Positions 2-41,123 of a stretch of DNA of 47,870 nt are shown piece by piece. A model generated the notes under the pieces. It was given only the letters and a program-made list of their open reading frames with translations. It had not been told where the DNA came from and ran no database searches. Source of the DNA: Candidatus Hydrogenedentota bacterium (GTDB lineage Bacteria > Hydrogenedentota > Hydrogenedentia > Hydrogenedentales > SLHB01); assembly GCA_016215105.1 (NCBI GenBank), contig JACRLJ010000155.1, positions 48,208 through 96,077 of the forward strand, written 5' to 3'. The position numbers and the translations under genes were made by a program. Within the stretch, counting starts at the first letter, position 1. Each line of letters begins with the position of its first letter.

Positions 2-952
2 AAAGATGAAGACACGAACAAGCGCCGGTTCTACCAGAAGAAAACGGTTCGCGCCGTGCAGGATGTGTTGTTTGGGATCAAGCGCGGCGAGGTCTTCGGC
101 CTGCTCGGCCCAAACGGCGCCGGAAAGACCACCCTGGTCAAGATGGTCTCGGGTCTGGTCAAGCCCAACTCCGGGATCGTATATGTGGGCGGGCTCGACG
201 TCGAAAAAAAGCGGTTGGATGTGTTGCGGATGGTGGGCGTGGTGCTCGAAGGCACGCGCACCAGCATTTGGCCCCTAACCCCTCTCGAGAACCTGGCCTA
301 TTTTGGCAATCTCAAGGATGTCCGAGGAAAGGTGCTCAAGTCCCGTTCCCGCGAACTGCTCGAGTTCATTGGGCTCAAGGATAAGATGAATGTGCCGGTG
401 CGGAATCTTTCGCGCGGACAGAAACAGAAACTGGCGATTTGTATCGCGCTTATCGCCGATCCGGAAGTCATATTGCTCGATGAGCCGACCACCGGCCTTG
501 ACGTGCAAAGCGGACGCTCGATCAAGGACAAAATCATCGAGATGACGCGGAGCCGTGGCAAGTGCGTTCTCGTCACGACGCACGACATGAACGTAGCGCA
601 AGAGGTCTGCGATCGGGTTGGCATTATCAACAAAGGCACACTGGTCGCGTGTAAACCTACCAAGGAACTAATCGGGGTCTTTTCCGACCTGTCGTATGAG
701 TTCTGGCTCGATTGCGCGCCGGACATGGAGGCGTTGCGGCAAACTCCCGGAGTGACGGGCGTGAATATGGATGTCGCGATAGAAGACCCGGTGTGCGTCG
801 TGCGTTTGGAGGCGGACGAACAACGCCGCTCCGAGGCGGTGTATGGCGTCATTGAGCGTCTGCACGCGCAGAATAGGATCCTCAAGTTGATAAAGCAGCG
901 GGAACCGCGCTTGGAAGATGTGTTTCTTCGGCTTACGGACGGCGCGGCCTAG
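2..952 (+). CDS. ABC transporter ATP-binding protein (5' end outside window)
   Basis: Cytoplasmic ATPase subunit of an ABC-2 type exporter. The frame is open to the left window edge and the upstream residues are coding-like, so the gene begins outside; the GTG at 56 is internal. Visible motifs are Walker A GPNGAGKTT (107-133), a signature loop LSRGQ (about 407) and Walker B ILLDEPTTG (about 473), followed by the switch histidine region TTHD. The last 90 or so residues form the small C-terminal extension common in the drug/peptide/lipid exporter (DrrA/CcmA-like) group. The next gene, 35 bp downstream, is the cognate permease, and the third gene is a pseudo-radical-SAM protein. The substrate is therefore probably a modified peptide, but that is inferred from context only. 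Confidence 0.93.
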   Translation, partial: KDEDTNKRRFYQKKTVRAVQDVLFGIKRGEVFGLLGPNGAGKTTLVKMVSGLVKPNSGIVYVGGLDVEKKRLDVLRMVGVVLEGTRTSIWPLTPLENLAYFGNLKDVRGKVLKSRSRELLEFIGLKDKMNVPVRNLSRGQKQKLAICIALIADPEVILLDEPTTGLDVQSGRSIKDKIIEMTRSRGKCVLVTTHDMNVAQEVCDRVGIINKGTLVACKPTKELIGVFSDLSYEFWLDCAPDMEALRQTPGVTGVNMDVAIEDPVCVVRLEADEQRRSEAVYGVIERLHAQNRILKLIKQREPRLEDVFLRLTDGAA

Positions 953-987: not shown

Positions 988-1727
988 ATGGGTTTTTTCC
1001 TGGTTCTGAAGGCGGAAGTGGTACGCGGCATGATCCAGATGCGGCGCTACTGGTTTGCCAGCGTGGTCGGCCTCGTTGTGGGATACGTCACGTTGATCGG
1101 TATGGTATACGCCTTCGTGCAAACCCCTGGTCTAGTGGGAGTCGGCGGGCAAGTAACCGATATGTCCGTAGGATTTCTCATCGGGATGTTCGCCTTCGGA
1201 ATCCTCGGGTTGTTCAGCCAGAATTTGCAGGCCATGGCCAGCGCGGGGCAACTCGAACAGGTGTGCATGAGCCCCCACGGTCTCGTCACGAATTTCCTGG
1301 CGCGGTCCCTGGGCGCGAGACTGGTCCTCGGTTGGATCACGGCCACGGTCGCCAGCGTCGCTGGTTTGTACGCTTCCTATGCACTCGATCTCCCGACCGG
1401 CGCGGCCATCGTGTGCGCGCTGGGTGGGGCCCTGCTGATTTCGGGGCTGGTGTCCGGCAACTGTTCTTCCTGGCTATTAAGATCGACGCGGCTTTTTTTG
1501 AAGACCTGCCTTGGGCCGCTCAAATTGTCGTGCGCATTCTTCCGGGAAGTGACGCGGCGATTTGCCTCAAGCTGGCGCTCCTGGACGGAATGGGATGGGA
1601 AGTCCTGGGTACGCAGTACTTCTTCTTTCTGATCATCAACGCCGCGGTATGGACGAGCGTCGGCATCACCTGTTTTCGTCTCATGGAAAACTGGAGCCGT
1701 CATAAGGGCACGCTGGGAGCATACTGA
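988..1727 (+). pseudogene. ABC-2 type permease, frameshifted
   Basis: Membrane subunit paired with the upstream ATPase. The ATG at 988 opens a frame with hydrophobic segments (VVGLVVGYVTLIGMVYAF, then FLIGMFAFGILGLF, then a third near GALLISGLV). Near 1455-1462 the sensible reading moves to the frame that ends at 1727: the original frame becomes polar and stops at 1632, whereas the other frame continues with LFFLAIKIDAAFFEDLPWAAQ and a final membrane segment ending in RHKGTLGAY. The change fits loss of one base. The downstream gene overlaps the 1727 stop as TGATG, which supports 1727 as the true end. Either a real frameshift or a sequencing error is possible; a T7 run at 1493-1499 is a less likely shift point because the residues before it are not membrane-like. 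Confidence 0.8.
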
Positions 1728-3652
1728 TGGCCCGCGAGCTCATCCACCGCTTCGAACAGAACGGCACGCGATTTGCCCTCGATCCCGAAACGTGCTTTTG
1801 CTTCGAGTGCGACGCCATCTCCTGGGATGTTCTCGAATACTACCCTCAGACCCCCATCAACAAGATACTTCACGAGTTGGGAGGCAAGTACGATCCCAAG
1901 GAGCTGTCGGAAGTCGTTGGCGAACTCGAATGGTTGCGCTCGACGAAATCCATTCTGAAGACGCCCTCCCAGGACGAAATCGCCAAACTCTACGAGTTGG
2001 AAAAGGGCGTGAAGCGGCTGACACTGCGCCTTCCCGGGAACGCAACGCAAGATCTTCCAAAAAGACGCGGCTGGTTTCCGGCGGATCGCGCTTCGGAACC
2101 CGGACGGTCCGGTTCAGGGCTCGCCCCCGCGGCCATCGCGCTGCTGCTTGGGCGTTCCGCCGCTCAAAAGGAATTGCGTCTTGAGTTGGTCGTGGAGCAA
2201 CGGCTTCACAACGTCGATGAGACCGCGGCAATCTGCGTCGATGCAGTCAAGGCCGCGAATCTTGCGGGCAAGAAGCTTACCGTGTGCGTACGCATCGCTA
2301 ACGTGCAAGTCGCCAAGGCGCCAGGGCCCCTGCAAGGACACACGCTGGACGTTAGCGTCGAGTTTCAAGATACATCAGACGTGACCGCGTGGATTCGCGG
2401 TCTCGCCTTTGACGGGCCTGTCAGTCTCGATCGGCTGGCCAAGATCGTCCAGCCGGGGGCGAATGGCGTCACCGGACGGATTATCGTTCGCCCAAACCAT
2501 GCGGAATTTGGGGACGCGGTAAAGACGCTGCGCGATTCCGGTTTCGCCGCGATCGAGTTGGACTTGGACTCAGCGTATGCGGTTACTCCGGCGCTGAATC
2601 CGAGCGACTTGCTCACGGGACTTGGACAGACGGCGATGTACTATGCGCAGTGTCTTCTCAAACATGACTATTTCCGTCTAGACCCCATAGCGCCGTTATT
2701 CATGCGCATTTACGAGGGCGCGCCTATGCGCCGGGGCGATCCCGCCGGAACAAACGAGCTCGCGCTGGATGAACGGGGAGGCATCTATCCTTCCCCCAAG
2801 CTTATAGGCCGCGAGGAATTCAAACTTGGAAACCTCGACGACGGCCAATTGGACGAAGATCGGCTGAAACAATTCGAGGACGTCGGATCTCTCACAACTC
2901 CAGAGTGTCTCCAGTGCTGGGCGCGAAATCTGTGCGGTGGCGGCGACGCGGCCGTTCACTATGCGCTTTCCGGTTCGTTCCGCCGCCCTCACGCCGCGTG
3001 GTGTGAGGCGCAACGGGCTTGGATGGCCGCGGCGGTGTCCGCGTTTCAACTATTGTCGTCGCACGGCGTAAACTTCACTCGCATGTACGGCAGCCTCACC
3101 CCGAAAGCTCGTCCATCCTTGTTTACGATGGCCCGCGCCGCATTTAGCCTCTCTATTGGCATGCGACCCATCGAGGAGGCAGACGCCGAACTGCTCGTAC
3201 AGTGGGAGAATTGGGCTGAGACGGCCTATTTCCTGTGCAACGAGAAGGGCATGCTTCTGGCCACGAAATACGACCGGGAAATGGATTCACTGCATCCCGA
3301 GGGTCTCGATCGCGAGTTGGTGCTTATACGTAAGACCGGCGAGTCATTTGGCTTGCTCAAGCTTCGCCCGGAATTCTCGGGCGCGTCAGCGAAAGCGTGG
3401 TTCTACTGCCGCAATGAAGCGGACTATTCGTCTGACGCGGTGCGAAAAGGCGTGCGCTTTGTGTTGAAAGAAGTGGGCGGCCAGCAAGCCCTCCGCCGGG
3501 TGACCGTGCAGGCGGCGCGGCACGAGCGGGCGTTACAGGCGTTTCTGCTTGGGGTCGGCTTCGAGAAGTTAGGGGTACAACGCGAAGCGCTCTACCTGCA
3601 CGGGAAATACGAAGATGTGGACGTGTACGGTATCGACCTCGAACGCCTGTAG
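1727..3652 (+). CDS. Pseudo radical-SAM/SPASM-like protein fused to a GNAT domain
   Basis: A 641-residue protein translationally coupled to the permease (TGATG overlap). Residues 1-110 resemble the N-terminal recognition region of SPASM peptide maturases. Residues about 140-390 read like a degenerate TIM-barrel, but no CxxxCxxC radical-SAM cluster motif is present. Residues about 350-430 keep SPASM-like features: YPSPKLIG, EFKLGN, then CLQCWARNLCGGG with Cys394, Cys397, Cys403 and a later Cys426; the usual Cys after GGG is Asp. Residues about 480-641 look like a GNAT acyltransferase fold. Placement with an ABC exporter suggests a role in RiPP-like peptide maturation or transport as a non-catalytic binding partner, possibly adding an acyl group. 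The function is inferred. The gene is last in its operon, convergent with fabG 15 bp away. Confidence 0.72.
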   Translation: MARELIHRFEQNGTRFALDPETCFCFECDAISWDVLEYYPQTPINKILHELGGKYDPKELSEVVGELEWLRSTKSILKTPSQDEIAKLYELEKGVKRLTLRLPGNATQDLPKRRGWFPADRASEPGRSGSGLAPAAIALLLGRSAAQKELRLELVVEQRLHNVDETAAICVDAVKAANLAGKKLTVCVRIANVQVAKAPGPLQGHTLDVSVEFQDTSDVTAWIRGLAFDGPVSLDRLAKIVQPGANGVTGRIIVRPNHAEFGDAVKTLRDSGFAAIELDLDSAYAVTPALNPSDLLTGLGQTAMYYAQCLLKHDYFRLDPIAPLFMRIYEGAPMRRGDPAGTNELALDERGGIYPSPKLIGREEFKLGNLDDGQLDEDRLKQFEDVGSLTTPECLQCWARNLCGGGDAAVHYALSGSFRRPHAAWCEAQRAWMAAAVSAFQLLSSHGVNFTRMYGSLTPKARPSLFTMARAAFSLSIGMRPIEEADAELLVQWENWAETAYFLCNEKGMLLATKYDREMDSLHPEGLDRELVLIRKTGESFGLLKLRPEFSGASAKAWFYCRNEADYSSDAVRKGVRFVLKEVGGQQALRRVTVQAARHERALQAFLLGVGFEKLGVQREALYLHGKYEDVDVYGIDLERL

Positions 3653-14706: not shown

Positions 14707-15738
14707 TTACGTCAGATTTCCAATCGCCGTGGCGATGCCCATGTTAATCGGCGCCTTGTCTTTGTACTTGATCCACTCAACGTGGCCGTCCATGTACAAC
14801 ACGTTGCAGCCGCCCGGAGTGTGGTTGAAGTTGTAACCACCGTTGGCCGGCACCGCGATTGCGTCAAGCGCGGCGAACACTTGCGACTGAGCCATCGCGC
14901 TGCCTGCAGGGTTATTGATATCCGTGATCATGAAGCGCTCGACGCCTTCCTTCAGGCGGTAGATGGTGGAGCCGTTCGAATTGCCAACGCCAGCCGGAAC
15001 CGACATATCGTTGTCCGAATACGCGTTTACGTTCGCGATAGCCGTGGCGTCTCCGACAGCCAGACCGGCCAAGTTGGCGGCAAGAGCGGCAGTCGCCCCG
15101 CCGTAGATCGTCTGAAACCACGTAAGGAATTGGATCGGAGCATTGCCTGTCGCCGTGGGATGGCCCAACAAGGTTGCGATGGGCGTTACGCTCGTCTGCG
15201 GATCGGTATCGGCAATCCTGTCGAACACAAAACCAAAATAGCCGTAGGTGTTGTCCACCCCGCCCATGCAATTCGCGGCGTTAGCCTTGGGAACGCCGCC
15301 GGAGATCGACGCGCACGCCACACCGTCCGAGTTCGTGTCAGCCAATCTCGCCGAACCGAACAGGCTCCCATTGGGACCCGTGAATTGTTTGTTCGAGAAC
15401 GAGGCGCTCGACGGGCAAACGTAGATGTTCCCATCGGACGTGTATTCCGGATAAACATCCGGCACGTTCGGACCGACAAACGTCGTCACGGTGACGGGCG
15501 GCGTCTGACCCGTAATCGGTATGACACCCAGCCCCATCCGCGGGAACTTGCCGCCCTTGGACTCATTCGCGAACATCTTGTATGCCAGGCCTTGCTGCTT
15601 CAGATTGTTCTGACAGCTCGCCCGGCGTGCGGCTTCCCGTGCCCGAGCCAGCGCCGGAAGCAGAATCGCCGCCAAAATACCGATGATGGCGATTACTACC
15701 AGCAGTTCAATTAATGTAAAACCTCTTTTCCTGCTCAT
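14707..15738 (-). CDS. Prepilin-like protein with H-X9-DG C-terminus (paralogue 1)
   Basis: 343-residue exported pilin-like protein. The N-terminus [20 protein letters not shown] is a class III/type IV prepilin leader: a short basic leader, the Gly-Phe cleavage/methylation site, Glu5 and a hydrophobic helix, then [19 protein letters not shown]. The C-terminus has the hallmark histidine-to-DG signature [22 protein letters not shown]. These families are strongly expanded in planctomycete/Lentisphaera/Hydrogenedentes-type genomes, and their exact role (pseudopilus, surface fibre) is not established. ATG at 15738 has GAGGAG upstream. A close paralogue is encoded 2.6 kb away. Confidence 0.93.
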
Positions 15739-15813
15739 TTCAATGACTCCTCGATTGTTACCACTTCTCTCCACCACACTACGATTACTACGACACCCAT
15801 GTCATCCGGAAGC

Positions 15814-17348: not shown

Positions 17349-18347
17349 CTAGTTGCCTGGGTTCAGCGCCGCGTCAAACGTCGCAAGATTCTTCGCAAGC
17401 GGATCCTTGCCCGGGTACTTGATGAATTCCACGTGACCGTCCATGAACAGGACATTGGAACCGCCGGGAAGGTGGTTGAAGTCCGTAACGTTCGTGCTCA
17501 AACGGTCCCACATAATGAACATGCTGCTTTGGGCTCTCGCACTACCTGCGGCATTGTTGATATCCGTGATCAAGAAGCGCTCAATGCCTTCCTTCAGCCG
17601 GTACAGGGTGTTGCCGCCGGCGTTGCCGTTGGGGGCTGCTACGCTGATATCCTTGACCGTGATCGCGTTGACCGCGTCAACCTTCGCTTGGGTGGTCGGC
17701 GGATAGTTGGCCAAGGTCGTGTTGTACATGTACTGGAACGACAGCACTATCTGGGCCGGACCCACCTTCCCTATGACGCCCGGGCCTAGCAACGCTGCCG
17801 CAAAGTCCAGCGGCGCCGTCGGATAGGTGTCGCCCATTTGGTCCAGCATGTACCCGTAATACGCGTAGCAAGCATCCACTGTATTCATGCACGACCCGCC
17901 ATGATTGCAGCCCGTGCCATTTTTCGTCGTCGGAACCCCGCCAGCGTAGTCCGTCCTACCGAAATAGTTGGAGCCATCCACACCCGTCCACAAGTCCGAA
18001 GACACACCGGGTTTAGAAGGACAGACGACGATATTCGGGTCCGTCAGGTATTCCGGATAGACTTCCGACACGTACGGCCCGAAGTTCAGCTTCAGACTCG
18101 GGTTGGATATGGGGTTGCCCGCGGGAGGCGGAACTACTTTAAGGAAAAATGACGGAAACACATCCTTGTTTTCACCGGAAAACATCTTGTAGATAATACC
18201 CCATTGCTTGAGGTTGTTCGCACAACTGGCCCGGCGTGCGGCTTCCCGCGCCCGCGCCAGCGCCGGAAGCAGAATCGCCGCCAAAATACCGATGATGGCG
18301 ATTACTACCAGCAACTCGATTAACGTGAAACCTCTCTTCTTGCTCAT
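17349..18347 (-). CDS. Prepilin-like protein with H-X9-DG C-terminus (paralogue 2)
   Basis: 332-residue paralogue of the gene at 14707. The leader is [20 protein letters not shown], followed by [21 protein letters not shown], an internal region ending [19 protein letters not shown], and a C-terminal [22 protein letters not shown] (the H-X9-DG signature). An ATG one codon upstream (18350) is equally readable, but alignment of the leaders with paralogue 1 favours 18347, with AAGGAG upstream. The shared 5' leader and promoter-like block show that gene, leader and terminator were duplicated together. Export and processing would need a prepilin peptidase not present in the window. Confidence 0.93.
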
Positions 18348-18419
18348 CATAATGACTCCTTGTTCGTTACCATTTCTCTCCACTACACTAAGATTACGAC
18401 ATGCATGAAATCCGGAGAC

Positions 18420-18435
18420 AGCCGGAGTACAGCCA
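18420..18435 (-). promoter_or_regulatory. Candidate sigma-54-like (-24/-12) promoter of prepilin gene 2
   Basis: Minus-strand 16-mer TGGCTGTACTCCGGCT, GG-N10-GC, 73 nt before the start codon. It is nearly identical in sequence and position to the element before paralogue 1, so it is conserved beyond its surroundings. Confidence 0.4.
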
Positions 18436-19090
18436 AGAAAACCAAGAAAACTAGTGCGATATGCCGATTTATGCCGGAAACAGCAGCCACAACTCCTCAA
18501 AGTCCTCGTCCTCGAGCAGCCTAAACGACAACGGTGACGCAATAAATATAGCACATCCAACCGAATTCGTCAATCACGAGCACCGGAGACCCAGTGAGCC
18601 GCAGAGCGGGAAGGAAGCGCGACCCGTTATCCAGGTCGTGCAGGCGCCGTCCGAAAGAGAGAACCTGCCCGTGCGGCGCGCAAGGACTCCGCGCTCCGCG
18701 AAGTCCTGTTCCTTCTCGTTCATTCCTGTTCGTTTCTATTCAACTTGGTGGCGCGGTCATCAATATACTGAGAAAACTGCGTCGCAAAAGTCAAGCGGAA
18801 AATTCGCCGTATTCGTTCGATGATCCGCCGCCACCCGTTCGGAGAGCGCACGGCCGGCGCGAATAACGGCCGACGCTGAGATGTCTGCTCGGAGGACGAT
18901 CCGCCGCTGCGCCCGCGGACGACCTCTCGGCGGAGTCTGCGTCCCGCGTCACCGGGGAATTCGTAATCAAGCTCGTACTCATCGAGGCGACATCGTTGAC
19001 ACGGCGCGCGCGTTTGCAATCACGTCGCGATGGGCGCGGCCAGACAGGAGTCATCGAGATACGGAACAAGACACGCAGGATCGCGCTGAG
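18436..19090. other. Non-coding region upstream of prepilin gene 2
   Basis: About 655 bp with no credible gene. The block at 18737-18805 resembles 16214-16290 (shared words ATTCAACTTG, ATATA-TGAG and AAAAGTCAAG followed by GAAAATT), the equivalent position upstream of paralogue 1. Nothing else is recognised. Confidence 0.5.
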
Positions 19091-38405: not shown

Positions 38406-41123
38406 ATGCTTAGAGGCAAGCCTTACTTGAGAGTCCTGTTGGGCCTTCTCCTGTGGAGCACGTCGTCCCTCGCCCAGTCCCCGTCCCCGTCCCCGTCCCC
38501 AAAGAACAATCCCGATTCGTCCATTCCGTCGCAGTTCTTCATCGCCGCCGATCATCTGTTCTTCTCCGCCGATGACGGCTTACATGGGCGCGAGCTTTGG
38601 ATGTGCGACTCCAGCGGCGCGGCCTCGCTGGCCGCTGACTGCGAACCTGGCCCGGGAAGCTCTGGCCCTCGAATCCTGGGCGCCATGGGTGGCTGGCTGT
38701 TCTTCACCCCGGAAAAGTCCACGAACGGGTCCGATTTGTGGGTTTGGGACCCCGGCAAACACGAGTCCCGTATTGTGCGCAACGTGAATCCTGGCAGAAG
38801 CGTGTATAGACCGGCGTTTCTCGGCCAGGGCAACGGGCGATGCTATTTCACCGTGGATCCAACCGGCAAGGGGTCTCGCGCACTATGGACTATAGTTCCC
38901 GAAAAAGACGCGTGCAAACGAGTTGAAGGCTGTCCCAACTCCGTACCGTCCAATTCCGCCGCGTTTCTACCAGACGGCGCCCTGGTGTTTGCGACCGATT
39001 ACGCGTTGTGGCGAGCGGACGGAGACCGCGCGCAGCTTATCAAGGATATCAATACCGATGAGAATGGGGCGGACCGTATCGACAATATCCGCCGCGTTGG
39101 TGGAAAGGTAGTGTTCACCGCGTACGATTCAAGTCACGGTTCCGAGCTGTGGGTCACCGACGGAACCGCCGGCGAAACCCATATCCTGAAGGATATACGG
39201 CCCGGACCGCGGGGCTCGAATATCATCCAAGCCTTTTCCGCGGACGAAGCTCTCTTTTTCCAAGCCGATGACGGAACACACGGCATAGAATTGTGGTGTA
39301 CGGACGCGACCGAGGCGGGCACACGGCTCGTCAAAGACATTCAACCTGGCAACGGTTCCAGCGACCCCCACTACTTCGCGAAGGCGGGCTCGTCCTGTTA
39401 CTTCGCGGCGGATGACGGAACGCACGGAATCGAGTTGTGGAAAACCGACGGAACCGAAGCCAGCACGGTAATGGTGGCGGACCTCTTTCCCGGAATCCAA
39501 GGGAGCGGGCCATGGAGTCTAGCCGGATTTCATGAATCCCTGTACTTCTGCGCAAAATCCCCGAGCTACGGAGAAGAAGTGTTTATGACCCGCGGAACGG
39601 CCGATTCGACGGTCGTACTCAAGGATGTCTCTCCTGGCCCCGAGGATTCAGGCCCCGGGAACCTGGCGGTACTCGGTGATGTGCTGTTCTTCTCGGCCAC
39701 GGATTCCCATTACGGGGAAGAACTCTGGATGAGTCTCGGCTCTCCCGACACCACCCGCTTAGCGACAGATATCCGCGTCGGTGGCGCCCGAGTCAATCCG
39801 TCGTCCTCGCCGCGAGGACTTGCCGCCATGGGAAACACGCTCGTGTTTGTCGCAACTGACCGGGAACACGGTGACGAACTATGGCGAAGCGACGGCACGC
39901 CGGAAGGCACGCGCAACGTATGCGACCTCGTGCCGGGACCCGGCGATTCATCGCCGCAAGAGTTGACCGTCGTCGGGACGCGCATCTTCTTCTCCGCAAG
40001 AGTCAACGGAACTGCACGGGAGCTATGGGTCAGCGACGGTAATCCCGATGGCGCACATGTGGTTGGAGATCCAACCAGCGAACCACGAATATCCAATCCG
40101 CGAAACCTTCTGGCGTATCACTCCAGCTTGTACTTTATTTCGGACAAAGACGGAACACGTGGCCAACTCTGGCGTTGCACAGAGGACGGAGCCCAGATCA
40201 CTCCCGCGCTGGATTCCGTCGCAGCGGCTGACATTGCTTACTCATTCTCCCCATTTGAATTGAGAGGAGGCCTCTACTGCTTCAGCTCGACCGCCGATGA
40301 AGACTTGACGTTGTGGAGACTTCCAGAAGCCAATTTGACAGCCCCTGTCAGACTTCCCTTCTCAATACCAAAAGCGCAGTCGATACTCCCAAACGTGGCA
40401 TCCATTGCGCTCGCCAGCCGCGACGCAGATTCCGCTGCGCCCGATCCAGCGACGGCCTCCGCAATCGCGGGCTTGATAGGCGCGCCCGGCGGCGCAGAGC
40501 ATTCAATCCAACCTGCAACTATTGGAAACATGACCTACTTCTGCGCCCGAACCCGCGAAACCGGAGCTGAACTCTGGAAGACAGATGGAACCACTGAGAA
40601 CACCGCACTGGTCATCGACGCGTTTGCCGGACCCGCCAGTTCGTCGCCCGCGCTCCTCACTCCCGTTGGGGACTTCCTGTTCTTCGTTTCAGAACATCCG
40701 AGGGAGGGACGCGTTCTGTGGCGCACACGCGGTACCGCTGAAACGACGGAGTTCGTACGCCCGCTCGACCTGCGTACCGGAATGCGAACAGGGGGACTCG
40801 CGATCAGCGACCTTGTTTTCGTTCCGCCGGACACGCTGGTCGCGTCCGCCCCGAATCCGACGTCAACACCTATCGAGGATCGCGAATTGCAGGTCATTAC
40901 CCACCTCAAAGAGGAAGGCGTTCTGAATTCCTGCCGGCAAATCAATACGAATGGCGGATCCTTCCCGCGATTCCTCACGCGGGTAAACAATGCCGTTTAC
41001 TTCGCCGCGAACGACGGTATCCACGGAGAAGAGTTGTGGATTTTGGACCCGGACTCCGCCGCGCCGAGACTGGTCAAGGACATTCTCACGGGCGCCCCGC
41101 CGGAACGCGCGTCCGGGAAATAG
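38406..41123 (+). CDS. ELWxxDGT-repeat secreted protein
   Basis: 905 residues with a signal peptide (LLGLLLWSTSSLAQ) and a short Ser-Pro linker. The body is a series of about 45-residue repeats with the signature GHGRELWMCD-like, GSELWVTDGT, GIELWCTD, GIELWKTDGT, GDELWRSDGT and AELWKTDGT, each preceded by FFAADDGTHG-type words. These beta-propeller-like repeats occur in large secreted proteins of myxobacteria and related groups; the function is unknown. It sits 170 bp after the Ser/Thr kinase in the same direction. Confidence 0.94.
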   Translation: MLRGKPYLRVLLGLLLWSTSSLAQSPSPSPSPKNNPDSSIPSQFFIAADHLFFSADDGLHGRELWMCDSSGAASLAADCEPGPGSSGPRILGAMGGWLFFTPEKSTNGSDLWVWDPGKHESRIVRNVNPGRSVYRPAFLGQGNGRCYFTVDPTGKGSRALWTIVPEKDACKRVEGCPNSVPSNSAAFLPDGALVFATDYALWRADGDRAQLIKDINTDENGADRIDNIRRVGGKVVFTAYDSSHGSELWVTDGTAGETHILKDIRPGPRGSNIIQAFSADEALFFQADDGTHGIELWCTDATEAGTRLVKDIQPGNGSSDPHYFAKAGSSCYFAADDGTHGIELWKTDGTEASTVMVADLFPGIQGSGPWSLAGFHESLYFCAKSPSYGEEVFMTRGTADSTVVLKDVSPGPEDSGPGNLAVLGDVLFFSATDSHYGEELWMSLGSPDTTRLATDIRVGGARVNPSSSPRGLAAMGNTLVFVATDREHGDELWRSDGTPEGTRNVCDLVPGPGDSSPQELTVVGTRIFFSARVNGTARELWVSDGNPDGAHVVGDPTSEPRISNPRNLLAYHSSLYFISDKDGTRGQLWRCTEDGAQITPALDSVAAADIAYSFSPFELRGGLYCFSSTADEDLTLWRLPEANLTAPVRLPFSIPKAQSILPNVASIALASRDADSAAPDPATASAIAGLIGAPGGAEHSIQPATIGNMTYFCARTRETGAELWKTDGTTENTALVIDAFAGPASSSPALLTPVGDFLFFVSEHPREGRVLWRTRGTAETTEFVRPLDLRTGMRTGGLAISDLVFVPPDTLVASAPNPTSTPIEDRELQVITHLKEEGVLNSCRQINTNGGSFPRFLTRVNNAVYFAANDGIHGEELWILDPDSAAPRLVKDILTGAPPERASGK

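Follow-up and report, generated by a model that had tools for sequence, protein, structure and literature searches.

The window, a stretch of 47,870 nucleotides from a Candidatus Hydrogenedentota contig (G000:C12:48208-96077), encodes a protein, P0001, in which a degenerate radical-SAM/SPASM maturase of the CteB/SCIFF type is fused to a GNAT-fold domain. The fusion gene is near-core in Candidatus Hydrogenedentota and lies at the end of a conserved operon headed by genes for small peptides. On balance, though with restraint, we favor the reading that this conserved pseudoenzyme is the leader-binding scaffold of a small-peptide, RiPP-like pathway that comprises acyl transfer, leader cleavage, and export.

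Interest in radical-SAM maturases centers on the reactions they catalyze. P0001 has lost this chemistry, yet strong selection maintains it across nearly all of an uncultured phylum. If it handles peptides as a scaffold, the maturase fold has a second use. A cluster conserved across almost the whole of a little-known phylum points to an undescribed peptide-making system; it offers families of short peptides that are new to Pfam and NCBIfam, a site at which acylation can be tested, and an operon that marks Candidatus Hydrogenedentota.

The fusion protein: domains, lost motifs, and kept cysteines

A Pfam search with P0001 alone returns no family at E<=1. In NCBIfam and PDB searches, the N-terminus and the SPASM domain of P0001 group with the SCIFF maturase CteB. 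A profile of 15 fusion homologues (A1) aligns with CteB (5wgg) in a single stretch, residues 4-435 on 5-445 (E 8.2e-39), and the same profile aligns with RimL at 539-634 (E 2e-4). The SPASM model TIGR04085 passes its cutoff on P0001 (37.5 bits, cutoff 27) and matches 33/34 fusion homologues at E<=0.001, and the SCIFF maturase model TIGR03974 stays below its own (76.1 bits against 425). GNAT Pfam models match up to 13/34 members, a count reached by Acetyltransf_4.

The AlphaFold2 model of P0001, made from a 34-sequence alignment, has a mean pLDDT of 82.0 and a pTM of 0.67, with low-confidence parts at residues 106-126, 462-473, and 508-524. It matches CteB with a Foldseek E of 2.2e-18 and a VIA Z of 27.1 (385 aligned, rmsd 3.3, 22% identity), and the RRE-like fold in the predicted structure aligns to CteB from residue 3 on. 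From residue 475, the model matches SpeG (Z 16.8, 160 aligned) and also RimL. A first-pass annotation, made from the letters of the window alone, had proposed a maturase-like N-terminus and an acetyltransferase-like C-terminal domain. Both are borne out by profile and by predicted fold, and the model shows the CteB-type TIM-barrel/SPASM arrangement and the GNAT fold that such a protein should have.

Table 1. Features of the fusion gene and its operon. Window coordinates refer to G000:C12:48208-96077; L002 is G000:C12:33000-52900, the upstream stretch of the same contig.
Feature	Coordinates	Strand	Basis or remark
ABC transporter ATP-binding subunit	window 2..952	+	start codon before window, beside N-run
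ABC permease, no Pfam family at cutoff	window 988..1727	+	frameshifted; stop overlaps fusion-gene ATG
Pseudo-radical-SAM/SPASM-GNAT fusion P0001, 641 aa	window 1727..3652	+	profile, alignment, and structure matches; features invariant in 34/34 homologues
RRE/PqqD-like N-terminal domain, about residues 1-90	window 1727..1996	+	aligned to CteB peptide-binding domain
CFCFECD at residues 23-29; all three cysteines invariant, 34/34	window 1793..1813	+	homologue alignment
Radical-SAM TIM barrel in degenerate form, about residues 94-330; deletion of CxxxCxxC loop, no GGEP	window 2006..2716	+	alignment and fold
SPASM domain, residues 337-437, Aux I ligands lost, Aux II ligands kept	window 2735..3037	+	TIGR04085 and alignment
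C394, first Aux II ligand	window 2906..2908	+	alignment; anSME-like spacing
C397, Aux II ligand	window 2915..2917	+	alignment
C403, Aux II ligand	window 2933..2935	+	alignment
C426, Aux II ligand	window 3002..3004	+	alignment
GNAT-fold domain, residues 475-641; SpeG and RimL nearest in fold	window 3149..3649	+	profile and structure matches
Peptide genes of the window genome	L002 12369, 12645, 12820		upstream of GNAT1
GNAT1	L002 13283-13807		upstream of window
GNAT2	L002 13826-14470		upstream of window; Acetyltransf_3
CPBP/Rce1-like membrane protease	L002 14467-15174		upstream of window; PF02517

The homologue alignment (A2) omits two of 35 full-length loci, L087 because of one stop and L096 because of X residues. 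Two true maturases, the clostridial L109 and the Hydrogenedentota L110, were comparators in a motif alignment. Against these, the second and third cysteines of CxxxCxxC are gapped in 34/34 homologues and the first in 31/34, the remaining 3/34 having S, G, or D at that position. The four columns aligned with the GGEP SAM-binding motif vary freely among the 34 homologues. At the Aux I positions (L109 numbering), C362 is gapped in 34/34, C380 is kept in 2/34, and C433 in 3/34; the full seven-cysteine, two-cluster SPASM motif is absent and the four Aux II positions are all kept. Pfam Radical_SAM (PF04055) matches 0/34 members at E<=0.01. A regular-expression check of 35 homologues finds CxxxCxxC in 0/35 and CFC(F/V)EC in 35/35; the corresponding expression for the SPASM cysteines missed 3/35 (L091, L092, L098), all three of which stand inside the 34/34 alignment.

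The absence of CxxxCxxC, already remarked on in the window's own protein, therefore extends to all homologues checked, and a working radical-SAM enzyme is ruled out on this ground. So is a pseudogene or assembly accident, since the full fusion is kept in 33 other sequences with 34-57% identity to P0001; the protein tree, which follows families (see below), also counts against it.

C394, C397, C403, and C426, the SPASM-like cysteines picked out in the first pass, are present and invariant in 34/34 homologues. They are assigned as Aux II ligands because their spacing equals that of the anSME Aux II ligands C317, C320, C326, and C348, the Aux I ligands of anSME being C255, C261, C276, and C330 (PMC5715301). 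Judged by alignment, the cysteine loss is orderly: the RS cluster and Aux I are gone and the Aux II site is kept. For the latter we infer an iron-sulfur cluster, in preference to zinc or an empty site.

The three cysteines of CFCFECD (C23, C25, C28) and two histidines, H7 and H411, are likewise invariant (34/34). The three cysteines are new: CteB and L109 have 0/3 of them and L110 only the first. With seven cysteines and two histidines invariant in 34/34 homologues, P0001 could be thought to keep a catalytic or redox function without the radical-SAM cluster, in which metal bound by the Aux II site and the three RRE cysteines, together with H7 and H411, serves an action on the peptide. We regard such a function as unlikely. 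To our knowledge, no SPASM protein functions without its RS cluster. Moreover, the activity of AhbD is intact after loss of Aux II (PMC10452713). AhbD of non-methanogenic archaea resembles P0001 in having a SPASM domain with only the Aux II cysteines (PMC10452713), but it keeps the radical-SAM cluster and is a heme synthase, with no peptide involved.

Operon, exporter, and distribution

The window begins just past an N-run in the contig, and thus the operon continues upstream of it. The gene order is peptides, GNAT1, in some loci an additional GNAT2-like gene, GNAT2, CPBP/Rce1-like protease, ABC ATPase, ABC permease, and the fusion gene. Among loci with enough upstream DNA, the permease adjoins the fusion gene in 41/41 and 39/39 cases (the two halves scored apart), and the ABC ATPase is present in 35/36, CPBP in 29/31, GNAT2 in 25/27, and GNAT1 in 24/27; members are missing at L068, L070, and L074. 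In 39/41 loci, the permease stop is at most 60 bp away from the fusion gene. The ABC exporter context seen in the window, an ATPase and a permease directly upstream, is therefore a property of the homologues as well. In the window, the permease carries a frameshift between about 1452 and 1518, which is either a sequencing error or a true mutation; the homologue at L065 is intact, with 271 aa.

The membrane protein of the operon passes the cutoff of PF02517 (45.3 bits, cutoff 22.4) and keeps the CPBP motifs EExxxR and His: in stop-to-stop frame numbering, E155, E156, and R160 are found in 34/34, H189 in 34/35, and H227 in 35/35. At one locus (L082 7296-7949), the CPBP matches are swapped in order, query 88-226 before 29-84, a hint that the protease gene is permuted or rearranged there.

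The first-pass annotation had pointed upstream for a precursor peptide and for true radical-SAM enzymes. Candidate precursor peptides are indeed found there; an intact radical-SAM gene, including an active radical-SAM epimerase of the epipeptide type, is not seen in the operon, nor is a catalytic partner maturase in 20 kb around the fusion gene. As an adaptor, P0001 is thus not obviously the helper of a like catalytic partner. Genes resembling gltB and gltD lie just upstream of the peptides (L002 6176-12148), and gltD occurs in several other loci too. Two further assignments were considered and rejected: a phage-defence gene, as PADLOC gives no match for the four proteins tested, and a plasmid-borne system, as plasmid matches are confined to the SPASM region, in 3 plasmid records.

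The fusion gene is present in 25/25 genomes of the same family and in 62/68 genomes of the Candidatus Hydrogenedentota set. It is lacking in G047-G051, which are all but one of the six genomes of family f5, and in G063, which is 60% complete; a broader profile search of these six finds nothing full-length. A scan of a contig collection with two peptide patterns gives 49 loci, and such a scan could miss relatives outside the phylum. By title, nearly all of these loci belong to Candidatus Hydrogenedentota: the name Hydrogenedentota, Hydrogenedentes, or Hydrogenedens stands in most titles, Nitrospiraceae in one, and uncultured bacterium in two. The tree of the fusion protein follows the families, with 5 label changes, the least possible, although f1 as a single clade has a support of just 57/34 and several other forks are weak. 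The tree is compatible with vertical descent.

The small peptides

In the window genome, three small ORFs precede GNAT1, starting MKHVSVISKTPV, MKHLKKVTVRPA, and MKHIKRVTCVRADA. Across loci, the peptides have 38-65 aa, an MKH-type leader, an amphipathic or hydrophobic core, and a near-invariant lysine. The consensus of type A (19 aligned) is MKHIRxISxxRADAFxDFxNAxWRAWxDFxYxKKNE. Type B (20 aligned) starts MKHxxxISxxPxxA, followed by a hydrophobic stretch and then by an aligned lysine in 20/20. In both types the helix is followed by a near-invariant lysine, whose placement is alignment-dependent. Pfam and NCBIfam searches with five typed peptides find no family, the matches at E 0.12 and 0.047 being chance-level.

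The pattern by which the peptides were collected required [MVL][KR][HN], so that some of the leader conservation in the alignments A3 and A4 was built in by the search itself. Two tests serve as checks. One is upstream enrichment: there are 44 peptide-like ORFs in 37.5 kb upstream of GNAT1 and 15 in 1.2 Mb elsewhere. At least one peptide lies within 1.5 kb of GNAT1 in 20/25 loci, and none at L093, L094, L096, L098, and L100. The other is a profile search with type A (19 of the profile's rows come from the searched genomes), which finds 54/68 genomes at E<=0.001, with a best E of 7.6e-26. Type A occurs in 54/62 genomes with the fusion gene and in 0/6 without it (Fisher p 2.7e-5, a guide only, as the genomes are related). 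As expected of a RiPP, a candidate ribosomal precursor with a conserved leader is found near maturation genes.

The type B profile finds 60/68 genomes, two of which, G049 and G063, are among the six without the fusion gene. In G049, the type B peptide (L116, G049:C786, 336-455, minus strand) lies beside gltD at a contig edge, and the operon may be absent only from the assembly. The match in G063 is weak (E 2.5e-4). Some genomes of family f3 (e.g., G031, G032, G037, G038) have their peptide and fusion gene on separate contigs; this and the five loci with no peptide near GNAT1 count against the scaffold reading. Both types are under purifying selection: pN is below pS in 171/171 pairs of type A (pooled ratio 0.43) and in 181/190 pairs of type B (ratio 0.72). 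A lone MRHLKS-type peptide occurs in the window genome far from the operon (L114, G000:C130:6000-12000, about 2335-2434), and orphan copies outside the operon may exist.

In type A the helix is amphipathic, tryptophans are present, and cysteine is nearly lacking; type B peptides are strongly hydrophobic. CPBP proteins are known as bacteriocin immunity proteins. These features, together with the imperfect CoA motifs of the GNAT domains described below, would suit linear amphipathic peptides, bacteriocin-like or signals, that are exported unmodified, with the ABC pair and CPBP serving export or immunity and the pseudo-maturase holding the peptide as a chaperone or sensor. We give this explanation limited credence: nearly every locus has 2-3 separate GNAT genes in addition to the fused GNAT, an arrangement that makes little sense if no acyl group is transferred.

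Proposed peptide handling and related systems

The proposal of a RiPP-like pathway with a dead maturase as scaffold is based on the homology to CteB, on the precedent of GNAT-acylated RiPPs, and on the protease of the epipeptide system. P0001 is a conserved pseudoenzyme that has lost the RS cluster, the SAM-binding motif, and Aux I and has retained the N-terminal domain, the barrel, the Aux II site, and the GNAT domain. Since the N-terminal domain is homologous to that of CteB, whose function and that of the RRE are described in PMC6231123, leader binding is the natural guess for it. P0001 would bind the MKH-type leader of the peptides encoded at the operon head and would present the helical core, with its near-invariant lysine, to a GNAT activity for acylation. 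The acylating GNAT could be the fused domain, GNAT1 and GNAT2, or all of these. The CPBP membrane protease would then cleave off the leader, and the ABC-2 type pair would export the product. The idea of a RiPP-type peptide system with a non-catalytic adaptor, put forward in the first pass, gains support from the fold, the exporter neighbors, and the candidate peptides upstream.

Acylation is the weak link of the scaffold reading. The acyl-CoA motif of the GNAT superfamily is Q/RxxGxG/A. In the fused domain the motif, placed by eye, is poorly kept: V/I/L is found at 572, R573 in 27/34, G575 in 15/34, and at 577 an R takes the place of G/A in 25/34. Therefore, the fused domain may itself be inactive, a pseudoenzyme. 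GNAT2 is a clear Acetyltransf_3 (E 7.5e-19) and is better conserved, with 56-69% identity to the copy of the window genome among full-length matches; its CoA motif is also not textbook. From sequence, GNAT2 seems a likelier catalyst than the fused GNAT domain. The closest folds of the latter (SpeG, RimL, and aminoglycoside acetyltransferases) would allow the GNATs to act on a non-peptide target, such as a polyamine, an antibiotic, or a ribosomal protein, the neighborhood being incidental. This is improbable in our judgment, given the physical fusion to a peptide-maturase scaffold and the phylum-wide linkage to peptide genes.

A bolder form of the scaffold reading, which we offer as speculation, sees in the system a ribosomal peptide pathway of a new class that is near-core to the phylum. 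In it, a double pseudoenzyme, its GNAT possibly dead, would combine the Aux II cluster it has kept with the new site of three cysteines and would be a metal- or redox-gated carrier that passes MKH-leader peptides to the separate GNATs and the membrane protease. The products would be helical peptides, acylated and serving envelope biology or signaling in a housekeeping capacity. A point against the scaffold reading is that many RiPP clusters differ between strains. As the operon is almost universal in the phylum, a housekeeping or signaling role fits better than an antibiotic one.

The CteB/SCIFF (ranthipeptide) maturase (5WGG, TIGR03974) shares with P0001 the RRE-barrel-SPASM order and fold over residues 3-444. 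Unlike CteB, P0001 is without the RS loop, GGEP, and the Aux I cysteines and has gained three RRE cysteines and a C-terminal GNAT; in contrast to the SCIFF system, the peptides here are nearly cysteine-free. The GeoRSP system SPASM-domain protein, so named in NCBIfam, is a SPASM protein inside a peptide system; its model gives no match in NCBIfam searches of P0001 and homologues, and no relevant paper was found in the open-access literature.

Another related system is the epipeptide operon epeXEPAB (yydFGHIJ) of Bacillus subtilis (PMC7026026, PMC12871923). The shared elements are a short precursor, a radical-SAM-type protein, an intramembrane metalloprotease, and an ABC ATPase with a permease. 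The epipeptide system has an active radical-SAM epimerase and, in EpeP, an intramembrane M50 protease (PMC10885120), whereas the present operon has a dead maturase, an Rce1-like protease, and added GNATs. In selidamides and nostolysamides, GNATs acylate Lys or Orn side chains (PMC13060382). The likeness is a GNAT-acylated ribosomal peptide, the acylation here being putative. These systems differ in their leaders, which are of the lanthipeptide, Nif11, or NHLP kind, and in their use of a tandem GNAT, with no pseudo-maturase described in the available part of PMC13060382. In the open-access literature, no paper was found on a degenerate radical-SAM/SPASM-GNAT fusion or on such a system in Hydrogenedentota; a term search of an RRE survey (PMC12710340) does not return the words GNAT, pseudoenzyme, or Hydrogenedent.

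Elsewhere in the window, two prepilin-like proteins with characteristic stretches near the start are encoded on the minus strand (14707-15777 and 17349-18560); we take both to be DUF1559-like. A 905-aa protein (38406-41123) is made of repeats around 'ELWxxDGT'.
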